Shown here piece after piece: positions 30,337 through 40,104 of a stretch of DNA of 64,000 nucleotides. Position numbers and translations under genes: made by a program. Numbering within the stretch: position 1 is the first letter of the stretch; every line of letters starts with the position of its first letter. Below the pieces are notes generated by a model that saw only the letters and a program-made list of their open reading frames with translations, did no database searches and was not told where the DNA came from. The stretch is from Halorubrum sp. PV6 (GTDB taxonomy: Archaea > Halobacteriota > Halobacteria > Halobacteriales > Haloferacaceae). The DNA lies in the NCBI RefSeq assembly GCF_003990725.2, contig NZ_CP030064.1:1860001-1924000 (forward strand). Direction: 5' to 3'.

Positions 30337-30810
30337 ATGGCAGAGGACCCGATCGACGACGTGGACAGGGCGATCCTGTACGCGCTACAGGAGGACGCCC
30401 GGAACAGCTCGTCCGGGGACATCGCGAAGCGAACGGGCACCTCGGACAGCACCGTCCGCAAGCGCATCCAGCAGCTCGAGAGCGACGAGATAATCAAGGG
30501 GTACAGCGCCGAGGTCGACTACCAGGAGTCGGGGTACCCGCTTCGGATGCTGCTCTACTGTACCGCGGCGATACCCGAGCGCGGGAAGTTGCTGCCGAAG
30601 ATCCTCGAAATCGACGGCGTCGTCTCGGTACAAGAGTTGGTCACCGGCGAGCAGAACCTCCTCGTCACCGTGGTCGGCGAGTCGGACGGCGACATCACGC
30701 CCGTCGCACAGGAGCTGCTCGACATGGGCGTGACCGTCGCCGACGAGGTCCTCGTTCGGAGCCACGAGACGACCCCGTTCGGCAAGTTCGACGCGGAGAC
30801 CGACGAGTAA
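30337..30810 (+). CDS. Lrp/AsnC family transcriptional regulator
   Basis: A 157-residue regulator. The N-terminal AsnC-type HTH is DDVDRAILYALQEDARNSSS, then GTSDSTVRKRIQQLESDEI. The C-terminal RAM-like half includes GEQNLLVTVVGESDGDITPV, which in this family binds small effectors such as amino acids and builds dimers/octamers. The ATG at 30337 is correct by alignment with the usual start. Convergent with the amidohydrolase gene, 24 bases apart. Targets unknown; the trp operator downstream is a possible but untested candidate. Confidence 0.92.
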   Translation: MAEDPIDDVDRAILYALQEDARNSSSGDIAKRTGTSDSTVRKRIQQLESDEIIKGYSAEVDYQESGYPLRMLLYCTAAIPERGKLLPKILEIDGVVSVQELVTGEQNLLVTVVGESDGDITPVAQELLDMGVTVADEVLVRSHETTPFGKFDAETDE

Positions 30811-31851: not shown

Positions 31852-32178
31852 ACGGACACACCGGAGCGGGCAACGATAGGGTTTTCTGACCGCGGAGAGC
31901 GAACGCCCCGGTCGCCGACCGGCCCGGCCGTCGTCGCGTCGATCCGCTCGTCGACCGGCGCGTCGATCCGCGCGACGGCGCAGGCCGCCACAGACCGCCT
32001 GTCCGTCCCGAATTCGAGTAGTGTAATGTTTTATAATGTTCTTTAAACAGGCCTTTTGCGAACAAATTGGGAATACAGATAGATTTAATAGTTAATCTGT
32101 TCTCCAGACAGAGTGAAGACGACCAAATTCGGTTTGCCGACGCGCGTCGGCCGCCGATACCGGTCGACTGGACTGACA
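31852..32178. promoter_or_regulatory. 327-base spacer with AT-rich regulatory island ahead of dabB
   Basis: No gene is seen here. The left part (to about 32010) is ordinary GC-rich sequence. From 32011 to 32100 it is strongly AT-rich: TAATGTT direct repeats at 32024-32030 and 32034-32040 with TTTATAA between; TTTTGCGAACA at 32054-32064; and an inverted repeat ACAGAT (32075-32080) / ATCTGT (32095-32100) enclosing TTTAATA at 32084-32090. That TTTAATA lies 26 bases before an in-frame GTG at 32113, an alternative dabB start. Two promoters or a promoter plus operators are plausible. Confidence 0.55.
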
Positions 32179-33669
32179 ATGGCAGGACGCACCTCGAACT
32201 CGGCGGTCGGAGCGCTTCCGGACACGGCGACGGAGTCGTCGCTCGTGCCCGTCGCATGCACGTGGCTCGCGTGGTCGCTGTTCGTGGCGAGCCTCGCGGC
32301 GCTCGTCGGCCGAGTTGGGTTCGGCGTCGGCGTCGGCTGGGAGATCCCCGGCTTCGTCGCCGTCGACGGGCTGACGGTCCTGATGTGGGTCGTCGTCACC
32401 TTCTTCGGCGGTATCGTCCACAGCTACTCCCGCCGGTACATGGCGGGGAGCGCCCACGAGACGAAGTTCTTCGTCGGCGTCTTCGGATTCGTGACGGTCG
32501 TGCTGCTGCTCGTCGCGGCCGACCACCTCGCCCTGTTCGCCCTCCTCTGGCTGGCGATGGGGCTGGTGATGGCGGGGCTCATCGGCATCGCCAGCGGCTG
32601 GGACCAAGCGCAGGCGGCCGGGGCGCTCGCGCGTCGCTACTTCGTCGCCAGCAGCGCGCTGCTCGGCGTCGCACTCGGCGCGCTCTGGTGGACGACCGGC
32701 GCGACGACGGTGTCCGGCGTCGCAGCGAGCGCGGACGCGCTCGGCGGCCCGGTGTGGCTCCTCGCCGCCGGCGCGCTGGTCCTCGCGGCGATGATCCAGT
32801 CCGCGCTCGTCCCGTTCCACGGGTGGCTGCTCTCCTCGATGACGGCGCCGACGCCGGCGTCCGCGCTGATGCACGCCGGGTTCGTCAACGCGGGCGGCGT
32901 CCTCCTGTTGCGCTTCGCGCCCGTCGTCACCGTCGACGCCGGACTCATGCTCGCTATCGTCGCGCTCGGGGCGACCAGCGCGCTCCTCGGAAAGCTCCTC
33001 AGGTCCGTCCGCCCGGACGTGAAGAGCAAACTCGCCTGCTCGACGATAGGCCAGATGGGGTTTATGATCATGCAGGCCGGCCTCGGCTTCTTCGGCGCGG
33101 CGATCACCCACCTCATCCTCCACGGCTTTTATAAGGCCTACCACTTCCTCGGGGCGGGCGGCGAGGTCGAGCGGACGAATCCGAAGCCCTCGTCGACGGA
33201 CTCGGTAGGGCGTCTCGGCGCCGTCGTGACCCTCCTGACCGGGCTGGCCGGCGGTGCGCTGTTCGTCTTGGTCACCGGGAAGGGAGCGGGCTTCGACACC
33301 GGGCTCCTGCTGGCGCTTTTCGTCGTGTTCACGACCCTCCACGCGGCCCGCAACGTGGTCCGCCGCACCTCGTTGCCGGCGACGGTCCGGTACGGGGCGA
33401 TCCCCCTGGTGTTTCTGCCCGCCATCACCGTGTACGCGGTCGTGTACCGGGGCGTCTCGGCGGTTCTGACCGATGTCCCGCTCGTCACGGCGCCGACCGA
33501 ACTGACCGTGTTCCACGGTGTCGTGGCCGTCGCCTTCCTCGCCGCGTACGTCGGGGTCGACGCGGGCGTCCACGAGCGCAGCCGGCGGCTCTACGTCGCG
33601 CTCGTGAACGCGAGCCACCCGTCCGCCGGGACGGTGCTGACGAACGCGGAGGATTACAATGAGTACTGA
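32179..33669 (+). CDS. dabB: DabB: NuoL/MrpA-like proton-channel subunit of the DAB inorganic-carbon system
   Basis: A 496-residue membrane protein with about 13-14 helices. The antiporter-like core includes WLLSSMTAPTPASALMHAG, LLGKLLRSVRPDVKSKLAC and GFFGAAITHLILHGFYKAYH, all hallmarks of NuoL-type subunits. It overlaps by 11 bases the DUF2309 gene, the fixed DabB-DabA pairing. In DAB complexes the channel is thought to couple ion flow to CO2 hydration by DabA. In TM5 the Glu of NuoL aligns with Leu125. ATG at 32179 is used; a GTG at 32113 would add 22 basic residues and fits a leaderless promoter, so the start is uncertain. Confidence 0.88.
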   Translation: MAGRTSNSAVGALPDTATESSLVPVACTWLAWSLFVASLAALVGRVGFGVGVGWEIPGFVAVDGLTVLMWVVVTFFGGIVHSYSRRYMAGSAHETKFFVGVFGFVTVVLLLVAADHLALFALLWLAMGLVMAGLIGIASGWDQAQAAGALARRYFVASSALLGVALGALWWTTGATTVSGVAASADALGGPVWLLAAGALVLAAMIQSALVPFHGWLLSSMTAPTPASALMHAGFVNAGGVLLLRFAPVVTVDAGLMLAIVALGATSALLGKLLRSVRPDVKSKLACSTIGQMGFMIMQAGLGFFGAAITHLILHGFYKAYHFLGAGGEVERTNPKPSSTDSVGRLGAVVTLLTGLAGGALFVLVTGKGAGFDTGLLLALFVVFTTLHAARNVVRRTSLPATVRYGAIPLVFLPAITVYAVVYRGVSAVLTDVPLVTAPTELTVFHGVVAVAFLAAYVGVDAGVHERSRRLYVALVNASHPSAGTVLTNAEDYNEY

Positions 33670-36076
33670 ACCCACCATCGAAGCGCGTATCGACGAAGCG
33701 GCGAAGACGGTCGGCTCGGTCTGGCCGATCCACTCGTTCGTGACGGCCAACCCCCTCTCGGGGTTCGAGGACCTGCCGTTCGGCGAGGCGGTGACGCAGG
33801 CGGCCGACCTGTTGGGCGGCCGCGGGTACCCGAGCCGGGAGACGTTCCGGGCGGCGCTCGAAGACGGCCAGATCGACCGGGAGCAGCTCCGCGACGCGCT
33901 CGACGCCCGCGGGTTCGACGACGACCCCGAGACGCTGCTCGAACGCCTCGACACCGGGGTCGAATCCGAGCCGGCGGACGCGGCCGACGAGCGGGTCGAC
34001 CACGTGCTGACCAAGTGGCTGGCCGCGTTCCTCGACGAGGGGAGCGCGAAGTGGGCGATGCCGGACCGCGACGCGGGCTTTTATACCGCCTTCCGCGCGG
34101 TGGCCGAACACGACGGCGACATCCCCGACGCCGGCGTCGTCGCCTCGTTACCCGAGACGCCGGCTGCGGCGATCGAGGCCGTCCTTGAGGCGCACCCGGA
34201 ACAGCAGTGGATACCGATCTTCGAAGAGCAGCTGGCGGCGCTGCCGGGCTGGACCGGCTTCATCAAGCAGCGCGCCGACGCCGACCGCGACTGGCAGTCG
34301 GCCTGTCCGATGACGCTCGTCGACTACCTCGCGGTCCGCCTCTCGCTGCTCGACGCGTTCGGCGTCGACATCGAGACGGACACCGGCCCGGCGACCCCCG
34401 GCGCCGACCCCGCCGACGAACTCGCCGAGGCCTTCCTCAGCGCGTGGGAGGCGAGCTACCGCGCGGCGGTCGTCGACCACGTCGCCGACGAGAGCCGGGC
34501 GCTGGCCGAGCGCGAGACCGCGGAGGCCGAGCGCCCCGACGCCCAGTTGGTTTTCTGTATCGACACGCGCTCTGAAGTGTTCCGGCGCCACCTCGAAGCC
34601 ACGGGCGCGTACGAGACCCACGGGTACGCCGGCTTCTTCGGCGTGCCGATGGAGTACAGCGGGTACGACGCCGAGGGGCCGGTCGCCGCCTGTCCGCCGA
34701 TCGTGGAGCCGCAACACCGGATCAGCGAGACGCCCGTCGACGAGGAGACGCGGGCGCGCCACGACCGCCTGACGAGCATCCGCGAGGTGGCGGGCGAGGT
34801 GCTGGAGTCGCTGAAGACAAACCCCGCGAGCGCGTTCGGCTTCGTCGAGAACGCCGGAAGCGGGTACGGCGTGGCGCTCGCGGCGCGGACGCTCGTTCCC
34901 GGTCGCGTCCGCGAGTTCCTGACGAGCGCCGACGACGCGGTGCCGGACGACCACGAGTTCTGCGACCAACTCGTCAGCCACCAGTTCACGCACGCCGACG
35001 GGCTCCCGGTGGGGCTGACCCACGACGAGAAGGTGGAGTACGCCGCGACCGCCTTCGACCTGATGGGCTGGACCGAGTTCGGCCGCCTCGTCGTGTTCAC
35101 CGGCCACGCCAGCGAGACGGCGAACAACCCCTTCGACTCGAGTCTGGACTGTGGCGCCTGCGCCGGGAACCCCGGCGGGCCGAGCGCGCGCGTGCTCGCT
35201 CGGATCTGTGCCGACTCGGACGTGCAGGCGGCGCTGCGCGAGCGCGGCTTCGCAATCCCCGACGACACCGTCTTCCTCGCCGGCCAGCACAACACGACGA
35301 CCGACGAGGTGGAACTGTACGGCGACGTGCCGGCGAGCCACGAAGCCGATCTGGAAACTCTGCGCGCCGACCTCGAAACCGCCCGCGAGAACGCGGCCGC
35401 CGAGCGCGCCGAGGCGATGGGCGTCGACGCCGCCGCCGGCGCCGACGAGGTGCGGCGCCGCGCCGGCGACTGGGCCGAGACGCGTCCGGAGTGGGGGTTG
35501 GCGGGCAACGCCGGCTTCGTCATCGGGCCGCGCGAACTGACGAGCGAGGCCGACCTCAACGGGCGCGCGTTCCTGCACTCGTACGACTGGACGACCGACG
35601 ACGACGGCGACGCCCTCGAAGCGATCCTCACCGGCCCGATGGTCGTCACGCAGTGGATCAACACGCAGTACTACTTCTCGACGGTCGACAACGCGGTGTA
35701 CGGCAGCGGCTCGAAGATCACCCACAACCCGGTCGGCAACGTCGGCGTCTATCAGGGCAACGGCGGCGACCTGATGACGGGCCTCCCGCTCCAGTCGCTG
35801 ATGGCGGCCGACGACGAGCCGTACCACCAGCCGCTCCGCCTCTCGACCGTCGTCCACGCGCCGGTCGACCGGGTGACTGAGGCGATGACGGGCCACGAGT
35901 CGGTGACGAAGCTGCTGGACAACGGCTGGCTCTCGCTGACGGTCGTCGACCCGACGCAGGACCACCGCGCGTTCCACTACGCCGGCGAGATGGAGTGGGC
36001 GCCGATGGACGACGGCGACGCCGTCGAGCCGACTCCCGAAGCGGCGGCGACCGAACCCGCGGTCGCGGACGACTGA
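33659..36076 (+). CDS. dabA: DabA (DUF2309): carbonic-anhydrase-like subunit of DAB system
   Basis: An 805-residue cytosolic-face protein. DabA is described as a vectorial carbonic-anhydrase-like enzyme that, with DabB, turns CO2 into bicarbonate in the cell. All four expected metal/catalytic residues are visible: Cys300 and Asp302 in VFCIDTRSE, His483 in FTGHASETANNP, Cys498 in SLDCGACAG; the His-to-Cys spacing of 15 equals that I recall for the characterised Halothiobacillus protein (H524-C539). N-terminal WPIHSFVTANPLSGFE is another family signature. The C-terminal 25 residues are acidic. ATG at 33659 overlaps dabB, so translation is coupled. Confidence 0.93.
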   Translation: MSTEPTIEARIDEAAKTVGSVWPIHSFVTANPLSGFEDLPFGEAVTQAADLLGGRGYPSRETFRAALEDGQIDREQLRDALDARGFDDDPETLLERLDTGVESEPADAADERVDHVLTKWLAAFLDEGSAKWAMPDRDAGFYTAFRAVAEHDGDIPDAGVVASLPETPAAAIEAVLEAHPEQQWIPIFEEQLAALPGWTGFIKQRADADRDWQSACPMTLVDYLAVRLSLLDAFGVDIETDTGPATPGADPADELAEAFLSAWEASYRAAVVDHVADESRALAERETAEAERPDAQLVFCIDTRSEVFRRHLEATGAYETHGYAGFFGVPMEYSGYDAEGPVAACPPIVEPQHRISETPVDEETRARHDRLTSIREVAGEVLESLKTNPASAFGFVENAGSGYGVALAARTLVPGRVREFLTSADDAVPDDHEFCDQLVSHQFTHADGLPVGLTHDEKVEYAATAFDLMGWTEFGRLVVFTGHASETANNPFDSSLDCGACAGNPGGPSARVLARICADSDVQAALRERGFAIPDDTVFLAGQHNTTTDEVELYGDVPASHEADLETLRADLETARENAAAERAEAMGVDAAAGADEVRRRAGDWAETRPEWGLAGNAGFVIGPRELTSEADLNGRAFLHSYDWTTDDDGDALEAILTGPMVVTQWINTQYYFSTVDNAVYGSGSKITHNPVGNVGVYQGNGGDLMTGLPLQSLMAADDEPYHQPLRLSTVVHAPVDRVTEAMTGHESVTKLLDNGWLSLTVVDPTQDHRAFHYAGEMEWAPMDDGDAVEPTPEAAATEPAVADD

Positions 36077-36138
36077 CGACTCCCGGCGACTTTTTCGGCG
36101 TGCGATCGTGTGCCGCGACGGCGACAGCGTTAAATTGG

Positions 36139-36184
36139 TGTACAGATTTGTACATCATAACGCGAAACAATACATCGGTGTACA
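36139..36184 (+). promoter_or_regulatory. Phased TGTACA boxes in the trpDFEG promoter
   Basis: TGTACA occurs at 36139-36144, 36149-36154 and 36179-36184, offsets of 10 and 30 bases; AATACA at 36169-36174 is a weaker fourth copy in phase. The last box ends 2 bases before the trpD ATG at 36187. The array covers the core promoter (weak A-box near 36155-36165), so a bound protein would likely repress. TTTTT at 36091-36095 may end the dabA transcript. Confidence 0.6.
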
Positions 36185-36186
36185 CA

Positions 36187-37212
36187 ATGAATATCACAGA
36201 CACGGTCAAACGCGTGACGGACGGGACGGACCTGACGGTCGACGAGGCGCGCGAGACCGCACGACTGGTCTTCGAGGAGGCGACCGAGGCGCAGATCGGC
36301 GCGCTCCTCGCCGCGCTCCGGGCGAAGGGAGAGACCGAGGCGGAGATCGCCGGCTTCGCCCAGGGGATGCGCGACGCCGCGCGGACGATCGACCCGGACC
36401 GCGAACCGCTCGTCGACACCTGCGGGACCGGCGGCGACGACTACGACACGATCAACGTCTCGACGACGGCCGCCATCGTCGCGGCGGGCGCCGGCGTGCC
36501 GATCGCCAAACACGGCAACTACTCGGTCTCCTCCTCGTCGGGGAGCGCGGACGTGCTGGAGGTCGCCGGCGCCGACGTGGAGGCGGAGCCGCCCGCCGTC
36601 GAGGAAGCGATCGAGACGAACGGGATCGGCTTCATGCTCGCGCCCGTCTTCCACCCGGCGATGAAGGCCGTCATCGGCCCGCGCAAGGAGCTCGGGATGC
36701 GGACCATCTTCAACGTCCTCGGCCCGCTCACCAACCCGGCCGGCGCCGACGCCCAGGTCCTCGGCGTGTACGACCCGGACCTGGTGGGGACCATCGCCCG
36801 GTCGCTCGCGCACATGCCCGTCGAACACGCCTTGGTGGTCCACGGCGCGGGGATGGACGAGATCGGGATCCACGACGAGACGGTCGTCGCCGAGGTGACG
36901 GGCGAGGAGGTCCGGGAGTTCACGATATCGCCCGAGGACCTCGGGCTCGATCGCGCGCCGATCGAGGCCGTCGCCGGCGGGACCCCCGAGGAGAACGCGG
37001 CCGACCTCCGGGGTATCGTCGACGGCTCCGTCACCGGCCCCAAACGCGACTTGGTGCTCGCGAACGCGGGCGCCGCGATCTACGTCGCCGGCGAGGCCGA
37101 GACGCTCGCGGCGGGCGTCGAGCGCGCCGCGGAAGCGATCGACTCGGGGGCGGCCGCGGCGAAGTTCGCGGCGCTGTGTGGCGGCGAGACCGCGGCGTCG
37201 GAGGCGAACTGA
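36187..37212 (+). CDS. trpD: Anthranilate phosphoribosyltransferase
   Basis: Second step of tryptophan synthesis: anthranilate + PRPP to phosphoribosyl-anthranilate. The 341-residue protein has VDTCGTGGDDYDTINVST (PRPP pyrophosphate loop) and AKHGNYSVSSSSGSADVLE (anthranilate/PRPP site), and NVLGPLTNPAGA. ATG at 36187 gives the usual N-terminal helical domain; the upstream open frame runs back into dabA. First gene of trpDFEG; its stop overlaps the trpF ATG by one base. Confidence 0.96.
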   Translation: MNITDTVKRVTDGTDLTVDEARETARLVFEEATEAQIGALLAALRAKGETEAEIAGFAQGMRDAARTIDPDREPLVDTCGTGGDDYDTINVSTTAAIVAAGAGVPIAKHGNYSVSSSSGSADVLEVAGADVEAEPPAVEEAIETNGIGFMLAPVFHPAMKAVIGPRKELGMRTIFNVLGPLTNPAGADAQVLGVYDPDLVGTIARSLAHMPVEHALVVHGAGMDEIGIHDETVVAEVTGEEVREFTISPEDLGLDRAPIEAVAGGTPEENAADLRGIVDGSVTGPKRDLVLANAGAAIYVAGEAETLAAGVERAAEAIDSGAAAAKFAALCGGETAASEAN

Positions 37213-37856
37213 TGGCCCGCGTGAAGATCTGCGGGCTGACGCGAGAGGCCGACCTCCGCGCCGCGGTCGACGCCGGCGCCGACGCGATCGGCGTCATCAC
37301 GGACGTGCCCGTCGACTCCCCGCGCGAGGTGGACCCGGCGACGGCGGCGGAACTGCTCGCCGACGTGCCGCCCTTCGTCACCGCGACGCTCGTGACGATG
37401 CCGGAGTCCGCCGAGCGCGCGGTCGAGCTCGCGCGGATGACGACCCCAGATGCGATCCAGCTCCACGGCGAGTGGACCCCCGACGAACTGCGATACATCC
37501 GGGCGGAGACGGCGCGGAAGGTCCTGTTGACGGTCGACGCCGACGACCCGGCCCGCGCCGAGGAGTTCGACGGGGCGGTCGACGCGCTCGTCGTCGACTC
37601 GACCGACGAGTCGGGCGCGGGCGGCACCGGCGAGACGCACGACTGGCGCGCGACCGGCGACCTCGCGGCCCGGCTCACCACGCCGGTCGTCCTCGCTGGC
37701 GGGCTCACGGCCGACACGGTCGCCGAGGCCGTCCGCGTCGCCGACCCCTTCGCGGTCGACGTCGCCTCCGGGGTCGAGATCGAAGACGGCCGGAAAGACC
37801 ACAACGCGGTGGCCCGCTTCGTCGCGAACGCGGGACGGGAGATGGAGTTGGCATGA
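37212..37856 (+). CDS. trpF: Phosphoribosylanthranilate isomerase
   Basis: Amadori rearrangement in the third step of tryptophan synthesis. A 214-residue TIM barrel with N-terminal VKICGLTREADLRAA, in which Cys7 is the general base; the general acid Asp lies in ALVVDSTDESG, and phosphate binding in VVLAGGLTADTV and VDVASGVE. ATG at 37212 shares a base with the trpD stop; the stop overlaps trpE by 4 bases. Confidence 0.95.
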   Translation: MARVKICGLTREADLRAAVDAGADAIGVITDVPVDSPREVDPATAAELLADVPPFVTATLVTMPESAERAVELARMTTPDAIQLHGEWTPDELRYIRAETARKVLLTVDADDPARAEEFDGAVDALVVDSTDESGAGGTGETHDWRATGDLAARLTTPVVLAGGLTADTVAEAVRVADPFAVDVASGVEIEDGRKDHNAVARFVANAGREMELA

Positions 37857-39502
37857 CCGACGCGAACCCGCTCGACCGCTCGAAGGCCGAGTTCGTCGAG
37901 CTCGCGGCCGACGCCGAAAAGCCCGTCGTGGTCCGCGCGTCCGCGTCGCTCGACGCCGACGTGACGCCGCTCGCGGCGTACGCCACGCTGGTCGGCGACG
38001 GCCCCTACGGATTCCTCTTGGAGTCCGGCGAGAAGGTCGCCTCCAGTGACCCGGACGGCGCGTTCACCGCGGACGGCGACGCCGACAAACACGCCCGCTA
38101 CTCGTTCGTCGGCTACGACCCGGAGGCGATCATCTCGGTCCACCCCGACCGGACCGACGTGACGCGGCTCGCCCCGGCGGCGGAGTTTATTAACGGTGAC
38201 GGCGATGACGACGGCGCGTTGGGGCCCGCAGCGGGCGACGCGATAGATCGGATCCGCGCGGCGTTCCCCGACGTGCGCCTCCGTGGCTTTCCGGACACCG
38301 ACCGCCAGATACTCTCCGGTGGCTTCGTCGGCTTCCTCGCGTACGAGGCCGTCTACGACCTCTGGTTGGAGGAGGTCGGCGTCGACCGCCCAGCGACCGA
38401 GTTCCCGGACGCGGAGTTCGCGCTGACGACCCGGACCGTCGTCTTCGACGACAAGGAGGGCACCGTCGAACTCGTCTGTACCCCCGTCGTGGGCGTCGAC
38501 GACGACCCCGCGGCCGTCTACGACGACCTCGTCGCCGAGGCGGAGCGGGTTCGCACTGAACTCCGAGATGCATCGCCGCCGGACCCCGGCGGCATCCGGG
38601 TCGACGGCGAGACCGCGGGCCCGCGCGAGGAGTACGAGGAGGCGGTCCGGACCGCGAAACGGCACGTCCTCGACGGCGACATTTATCAGGGCGTTATCTC
38701 GCGGAGCCGCGAGCTCCGCGGCGAAGTCGACTCGCTCGGCCTCTACGCGGCGCTGCGCGAGGTGAACCCCTCGCCGTACATGTACGTCCTGCGCCACGAC
38801 GACCGCAGCATCGTCGGCGCGAGCCCGGAGACGCTGGTGTCGGTGCGGGGCGACCGGATCGTCTCCAATCCGATCGCGGGCACCTGCCCGCGGGGGACCA
38901 GCCCGGTCGAGGACCGTCGCCTCGCCGGGGAGATGCTCGCCGACGCGAAGGAGCGCGCCGAACACACGATGTTGGTCGACCTGGCGCGCAACGACGTGCG
39001 GCGCGTCTCCGAGGCGGGCTCCGTGCGCGTCGAGGAGTTCATGAACGTCCTCAAGTACAGCCACGTCCAGCACATCGAGTCGACCGTGACGGGGACGCTT
39101 GCGGCCGACGCCGACGCGTTCGACGCGACGCGGGCGACGTTCCCGGCCGGGACGCTCACGGGCGCGCCGAAGGTCCGGGCGATGGAGATCATCGAGTCGC
39201 TGGAGGCGACCCCGCGAGAGGCGTACGGCGGCGGCGTCGGCTACTACTCGTGGACCGGCGACGCCGACTTCGCCATCGTGATCCGGACGGCGACGCTCGA
39301 CGAGTCGACAGAGGACGACGGCTCGACCGAGACCGCGGTGACGGTCCGCGCCGGCGCCGGGTTGGTCGCCGACTCCGACCCGGCCGCCGAGTACGAGGAG
39401 ACCGAACAGAAGATGGACGGCGTGTTGGCCGCGATCGACCGCATCCGCGAGGAGCCGGCGGCCGAAGAGCCGCTGCCGGCCGGCACGGAGGCCGACGAAT
39501 GA
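37853..39502 (+). CDS. trpE: Anthranilate synthase component I
   Basis: Large subunit producing anthranilate from chorismate with ammonia supplied by TrpG. A 549-residue protein, within family range. Catalytic-domain motifs: SPYMYVLRHDDRSIVGASPE, IAGTCPRGTSPVEDRRLA, EHTMLVDLARNDVRRV, TFPAGTLTGAPKVRAMEI and GGGVGYYS. The N-terminal domain includes PYGFLLES, part of the feedback-inhibition region by Trp in this family (the precise S-tryptophan motif is L-E-S as expected). Starts in an ATGA overlap with trpF and overlaps trpG by 4 bases. Confidence 0.96.
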   Translation: MTDANPLDRSKAEFVELAADAEKPVVVRASASLDADVTPLAAYATLVGDGPYGFLLESGEKVASSDPDGAFTADGDADKHARYSFVGYDPEAIISVHPDRTDVTRLAPAAEFINGDGDDDGALGPAAGDAIDRIRAAFPDVRLRGFPDTDRQILSGGFVGFLAYEAVYDLWLEEVGVDRPATEFPDAEFALTTRTVVFDDKEGTVELVCTPVVGVDDDPAAVYDDLVAEAERVRTELRDASPPDPGGIRVDGETAGPREEYEEAVRTAKRHVLDGDIYQGVISRSRELRGEVDSLGLYAALREVNPSPYMYVLRHDDRSIVGASPETLVSVRGDRIVSNPIAGTCPRGTSPVEDRRLAGEMLADAKERAEHTMLVDLARNDVRRVSEAGSVRVEEFMNVLKYSHVQHIESTVTGTLAADADAFDATRATFPAGTLTGAPKVRAMEIIESLEATPREAYGGGVGYYSWTGDADFAIVIRTATLDESTEDDGSTETAVTVRAGAGLVADSDPAAEYEETEQKMDGVLAAIDRIREEPAAEEPLPAGTEADE

Positions 39503-40104
39503 ACGTCGTCATCGTCGACAACTTCGACTCGTTCACCTACAACCTCGTCGAGTACGTCTCCGATCAGCCGCTCGACGGCGAGGCGATCGACGTAACGGTT
39601 TTGAAGAACACGGCGTCGCTGGCGGCGATCGAAGCGGCCGAGCCGGACGCGATCATCATCAGTCCCGGCCCCGGCCACCCGAAGAACGACCGCGACGTGG
39701 GCGTGACGATGGCGGTGTTACGCGACCTCTCGCCGACCGTGCCGACGCTCGGCGTCTGCCTCGGGCTTGAGGCCGCAGTCTACGAGTACGGCGGGAGCGT
39801 CGGGCACGCGCCAGAGCCCATTCACGGGAAGGCGTTCCCCGTCGACCACGACGGCGTCGGGGTGTTCGCCGGCCTCGAACAGGGGTTCCGCGCGGGCCGG
39901 TATCACTCGCTGGCCGCGACCGAGGTCCCGGACGCGTTCGAAGTGAGCGCGACCACCGACCACGAGGGCGACGAGATCGTGATGGGGATCCGGCACCGCG
40001 AGTACCCGATCGAGGCGGTCCAGTTCCACCCGGAGAGCGTGTTGACCGCCGCGGGCCACGACCTGATCCGGAACTTCCTCACGGGCGTCCGTCAGGAGGC
40101 CTGA
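39499..40104 (+). CDS. trpG: Anthranilate synthase component II (glutamine amidotransferase)
   Basis: Class I glutamine amidotransferase, 201 residues, hydrolysing Gln to feed ammonia to TrpE. The nucleophile is Cys87 in LGVCLGLEA (most bacterial proteins have G-H-Q after CL; here L-E-A); the His/Glu pair is in VQFHPESVLT. Oxyanion strand IIISPGPGHPKND. The final 13 bases overlap the 3' end of the convergent MoaB-like gene on the opposite strand. Pairing with the directly preceding trpE excludes a pabA assignment. Confidence 0.95.
   Translation: MNVVIVDNFDSFTYNLVEYVSDQPLDGEAIDVTVLKNTASLAAIEAAEPDAIIISPGPGHPKNDRDVGVTMAVLRDLSPTVPTLGVCLGLEAAVYEYGGSVGHAPEPIHGKAFPVDHDGVGVFAGLEQGFRAGRYHSLAATEVPDAFEVSATTDHEGDEIVMGIRHREYPIEAVQFHPESVLTAAGHDLIRNFLTGVRQEA

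Follow-up and report, generated by a model that had tools for sequence, protein, structure and literature searches.

Regulation of archaeal trp genes

The closest known system to the locus described here is that of TrpY and the TRP boxes of Methanothermobacter thermautotrophicus. In this organism the genes are reportedly arranged as trpY-trpEGCFBAD, and TrpY is said also to control trpB2. The word that it recognizes is presumably TGTACA. A study that surveys TrpY homologues uses the name 'TRP box' for the sequences, describes the haloarchaeal branches of the family as unexamined, and reports that the TrpY homologue of Thermococcus does not bind its trp promoter (PMC6737238). Thermococcus kodakarensis uses a non-TrpY protein, Tar (TK0271), which acts on trp and other aromatic operons, activating them from a different palindrome, TGGACA-N8-TGTCCA, that lies upstream of BRE/TATA (PMC6737238).

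Among the haloarchaea, all seven trp genes of Halobacterium salinarum, in both operons, are induced in the absence of aromatic amino acids. The Lrp-family protein LrpA2 (OE2776F) has been proposed as a regulator of this pathway from expression data, in sections of the study that describe no operator for it (PMC4162585). Induction of this kind is the behaviour expected of end-product repression. The Haloferax trpCBA promoter has been reported not to be tightly regulated (PMC13147458), and the response may therefore be modest. A search of the open-access literature found no haloarchaeal trp operator.

The trpDFEG promoter of Halorubrum sp. PV6 shares several features with the Methanothermobacter system. 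It carries the TGTACA word, its boxes overlap the trp core promoter, and a TrpY-family protein is encoded in the genome; in a relative, a TrpB-like gene is also among the putative targets. It differs in that the boxes form a fixed 10-bp ladder between the TATA box and the ribosome-binding motif, and in that two separate operons are targeted. Furthermore, Methanothermobacter trpY is divergent, adjacent to the trp operon and autoregulated, whereas the trpY-family gene here is unlinked and has no upstream boxes. The site is palindromic, like that of Tar, and a single regulator would again serve trp and other aromatic operons; however, TGTACA-N4-TGTACA lies downstream of the TATA box, and the trpD promoter departs from the Tar-type arrangement in word, spacing and position. 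LrpA2 is linked to the same haloarchaeal pathway, but the candidate regulator here is of the HTH-ACT TrpY family. Judged from these comparisons, the trpD site is classed as an operator of the TRP-box type whose reader is probably a TrpY-family protein, and not as a copy of the Methanothermobacter circuit. We put at roughly 0.7 the probability that the array serves a tryptophan or aromatic amino acid regulon as its operator and is read by a TrpY-family repressor, a reading in which we infer the reader, the tryptophan ligand, repression and the start site.

The trpD promoter

The window, which is the whole 64 kb stretch of DNA that was analysed and whose numbering is used here, contains trpD (36187-37212, plus strand), the first gene of its operon, encoding anthranilate phosphoribosyltransferase (TIGR01245, 417 bits against a cutoff of 199; PF00591). 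It is followed on the same strand by the overlapping frames of trpF (37212-37856), trpE (37853-39502) and trpG (39499-40104), named from their sequence and gene order. Directly upstream of trpD, 32113-36076 is occupied by the gene for an inorganic-carbon transporter subunit, DabA (PF10070, 880 bits), and by that for a partner of proton-antiporter type.

The stretch from 36122 to 36189 reads CGACAGCGTTAAAT-tgg-TGTACA-GATT-TGTACA-TCATAACGCGAAAC-AATACA-TCGG-TGTACA-CA-ATG. Perfect TGTACA boxes lie at 36139-36144, 36149-36154 and 36179-36184, with AATACA at 36169-36174, and the trpD ATG begins at 36187, 2 bases past the last box. A sequence-only reading of this DNA had noted these four boxes, and their positions and spacings are confirmed. 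It had further described the spacings as whole turns of DNA, which is correct only as an approximation: the steps are exactly 10 bp, such that four of them span 40 bp, whereas four turns of B-DNA take about 42 bp.

From its sequence and position, CGACAGCGTTAAAT (36122-36135, plus strand) is taken as the BRE/TATA-like core promoter element of trpD. The boxes at 0 and +10 form the primary operator dyad, TGTACA-N4-TGTACA (36139-36154), which begins 4 bp past this element, so that the boxes would overlap the core promoter given a transcription start that, judged by the TATA position, is predicted some 27 bp beyond the TATA centre, at around 36159. The element AACGCGAA (36159-36166, offset 20-27), with the column consensus AACnCGAA, sits at or just past this predicted start, with the dyad on one side and the +30 box on the other. 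Its conservation is nearly equal to that of the boxes, and it may be an initiator. A GGTG motif at 36177-36180 is most simply explained as a probable Shine-Dalgarno, or ribosome-binding, motif; GGTG pairs with the CACC of the 16S tail.

TGTACA occurs seven times in the window, against 1.58 expected from shuffled sequence. The perfect TGTACA-N4-TGTACA pair is present only once in the 3.04 Mb genome, immediately after the trpD TATA box, and the reversed control pattern is absent from these 3.04 Mb. When two mismatches are allowed, the genome yields 19 forward matches against 16 for the control and, because these numbers are so close, most of the relaxed matches look like chance. Regulon targets were sought by such pattern searches, which cover weak sites non-exhaustively.

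Conservation of the boxes

Eighty orthologous trpD promoters from named haloarchaeal genomes, 31 of the Halorubrum group and 49 of other genera, were aligned on the first box. Boxes 0 and +10 are perfect in all 31 of the former, and both are present with two mismatches or fewer in all 49 of the latter. Across the 80 promoters the conserved block has sharp edges, running from offset -17 (CGACA), where CGACAGCGTTAAAT forms its left edge, to about +41 (GGTG). In the 49 promoters of other genera, most columns of the class-wide CGACA..CTTAAG element are 67-100% conserved, compared with only about 30-59% for the commonest base upstream of the block. The first box varies at its sixth base in these genera, and thus the conserved unit is an inward-facing dyad, (A)TGTAC-N6-GTACA(T), the extended symmetric core of which covers approximately 36137-36156. 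Its size would suit a single winged-helix dimer.

The two remaining boxes behave differently from how they first appeared. AATACA, which the sequence-only reading had considered the weaker site, is the conserved third box of the array (+30), its T-C-A core being retained in 29/31 Halorubrum-group and 41/49 other promoters. The third perfect TGTACA (+40) turns out to be lineage-specific, perfect in 8 of the 31 and in none of the 49, and its first two bases fall inside GGTG, a motif kept at offset 38 by 30/31 and 41/49 of the promoters, respectively.

The spacing of the boxes was examined in one trpD promoter per genus, taking as a half-site any TGTACA with at most one mismatch. Among the 32 promoters, half-site pairs are found at a spacing of 10 in 24, of 30 in 13 and of 20 in 12, while 200 dinucleotide shuffles gave at most 4 for any one spacing (2 for the equivalent trpC set). 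The upstream control stretches used in the trpD and trpC comparison contain no perfect box. One genome (G040) has a second copy of trpD (C39:83946-84937), with TGTACAATTTTGTCCA at its start codon.

The boxes at other haloarchaeal genes

The trpC gene of the same genome (NF041303) is preceded by TGAACA-N4-CGTGCA-N4-TGTACA, ending 3 bases before the ATG. Its orthologues across the order mostly have CTTA-TGTACA-N4-cGTnCg-N4-TGTACA-ATAATG, with boxes at 0/10/20, and a half-site pair at spacing 20 is present in 25 of 28 trpC promoters at no more than one mismatch. The sequence-only reading had proposed looking for the motif in other haloarchaeal trp promoters, its absence there counting against the idea; the motif is present at trpD and trpC throughout the haloarchaea, and the idea survives. 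The perfect pair is found in 20 of 146 genomes of the order, and 16 of the 20 such sites fetched belong to trpD. A search for pairs with one mismatch also revealed 0/10/20 ladders at the trpB promoters of two small haloarchaeal families (f9 and f11).

Two further kinds of gene emerged from the one-mismatch search. In one genus, the gene of a sodium:neurotransmitter-type transporter (L016 in genome G131, matching PF00209, and L249 in G020), possibly an aromatic amino acid importer, has a pair 3 bases ahead of its ATG. In related haloarchaea (L255 in G027 and L256 in G056), the pair TGTACATCCGCGTACA is found upstream of a tryptophanase gene (NF009709). Tryptophanase is catabolic, and the haloarchaeal tna promoter is induced by tryptophan. 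Like the trp operons, tna is a tryptophan-linked gene, although the tryptophanase pair lies further upstream of its gene than the trp operator pair does. Its presence there hints that the trp regulator might also act on tryptophan breakdown. Each seen in one genus, the transporter and tryptophanase would be leads rather than results.

The boxes beyond the haloarchaea

Perfect pairs are found in 9 of 50 genomes from other families of the Halobacteriota, at 13 sites in total, seven of them at trp or aromatic-pathway genes. These are trpD (L211 and L215), trpC (L212), trpE (L214), the gene for ADH synthase, the enzyme that opens the archaeal aromatic pathway (L210 and L216, the latter matching NF005556), and a TrpB-like gene (L206; NF009057). 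The last has TGTACA-N4-TGTACA-N14-TGTACA-N4-TATACA, with boxes at 0/10/30/40, which is the geometry seen in the window. Ladders with 10-bp steps, in which the variants TATACA and TGTATA are frequent, occur at the trp promoters of families f19, f25, f27, f28, f33 and f34. At the trp genes of some relatives that have TrpY, and of some families, boxes are few or absent. In both genomes of family f26 that have no TrpY match over the cutoff, trpE lacks a box. A perfect pair in genome G174 (L209) lies inside an apparent CRISPR array, evidently by chance.

The box word thus reaches methanogen relatives at their trp genes, and a TrpY-family protein is present there too. On sequence grounds, these comparisons establish the boxes as a genuine, conserved trp operator, shared between the trp operons and across the phylum. 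The sequence-only reading therefore holds in substance, with more behind it than could be known from one promoter.

A TrpY-family protein as candidate reader

Having seen no TrpY homologue, the sequence-only reading suggested either a distant relative of TrpY or an Lrp-type protein, such as the product of the gene at 30337, as the reader of the boxes. There is indeed no TrpY homologue inside the window; however, the same genome encodes a TrpY-family protein of 166 amino acids elsewhere (C1:2640881-2641369, minus strand). This protein matches NF053754 with 232 bits (cutoff 180), giving good support to the first suggestion, and has an ACT domain (PF01842, 28.2 bits; cutoff 27), while its HTH is not detected by Pfam. 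A search for solved structures of TrpY relatives found none.

Each of the 122 complete genomes sampled from the order has a member of the NF053754 family, as do 123 of the 124 in the phylum sample; the family also occurs in the laboratory species Haloferax volcanii. Every complete genome of the order that was checked has both trpD and TrpY, but since TrpY is nearly universal, its co-occurrence with the boxes barely discriminates and is uninformative inside the order. All 22 aligned members match NF053754, and a VDRRVxDxTT segment, placed where a recognition helix would be expected and so putatively assigned, is invariant from haloarchaeal through methanogen members. Such invariance is expected if the word read by TrpY is also unchanged.

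The genomic context of the gene counts against TrpY as the reader. At the 59 trpY-family loci examined there are no trp genes nearby, and no TGTACA occurs within 150 bp upstream. Autoregulation through its own boxes was considered and rejected, as the promoter of the gene in this genome and the 59 upstream regions are free of them. Across the loci examined, L192, L193, L195, L199 and L204 among them, the trpY-family gene adjoins radA in those of Halorubrum and not in the others.

Alternative readings

The same boxes could be a genuine trp operator with another reader, for instance an Lrp-type protein such as LrpA2, leaving TrpY to do something else in haloarchaea. This is unlikely, though it is the alternative that deserves most attention. 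LrpA2 is itself up 14.9-fold in H. salinarum deprived of aromatic amino acids, in the data given for it (PMC4162585), and the unlinked position of trpY, together with the use of Tar in Thermococcus, points the same way. Against it, the methanogen relatives share the operator word at their trp genes and have a TrpY-family protein in which the putative recognition segment does not vary. LrpA2 is a more serious rival than the Lrp-type gene in the window, at 30337, whose patchy distribution excludes it as a general reader. Boxes at trpD or trpB are retained in two complete genomes (G011 and G022) in which nothing matches it at E<=1e-15, and within the 64 kb window no TGTACA lies near the gene.

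It is improbable that the conserved block is a core promoter, initiator, ribosome-binding sequence, leader peptide or RNA element and not an operator. TATA-like and GGTG motifs do border the block, and many species have a seemingly open frame that starts with A/GTG at offset -1. However, TGTACA words with the same 10-bp steps are found again at trpC, trpB and trpE and at aromatic-pathway and TrpB-like genes, and not at random genes. The leader peptide (M/V-Y-x-x-V-H-H-N...) was rejected, as its frame contains stops in 21 of the 80 promoters and would begin upstream of the predicted transcription start; the peptides inspected have no Trp codons. An RNA element was likewise rejected: Rfam gives nothing above chance, its one hit being a snoRNA match that lies on the opposite strand and falls below threshold.

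Chance clustering in one promoter of a hexamer that is short and self-complementary is refuted by the conservation across 80 orthologues and by the shuffle controls, quite apart from the concentration of three of the seven window copies in 46 bp and the uniqueness of the pair in the genome.

A model for the trp operator

A position between the TATA box and the start site is the usual one for archaeal repressors. A dimer of the TrpY-family winged-helix/ACT protein would most likely bind the dyad at 36139-36154, which takes up the space separating the TATA box from the predicted start site. Further TrpY subunits could then occupy the boxes downstream at 10-bp steps (at +30, and in some species at +20 or +40), all facing nearly the same side of the helix. 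With tryptophan, or aromatic amino acids in general, in plentiful supply, TrpY would block recruitment of RNA polymerase or promoter opening, and trpDFEG and trpC(BA) would be turned down together.

More tentatively, and with somewhat less than an even chance of being right, a single TGTACA-reading TrpY regulon may have been kept throughout the Halobacteriota. It would cover tryptophan synthesis and uptake, ADH synthase, the TrpB-like enzyme and, in certain lineages, tryptophanase, with TrpY subunits placed every 10 bp along a single face of the DNA, in a row that starts at the TATA box and ends at the ribosome-binding site.

The comparisons provide a candidate haloarchaeal trp operator, a candidate regulator to go with it and a short list of target genes. 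Collectively, these suggest that a transcription factor and its operator can be kept as a pair across a whole archaeal phylum, which would be useful for predicting regulons in unstudied relatives.
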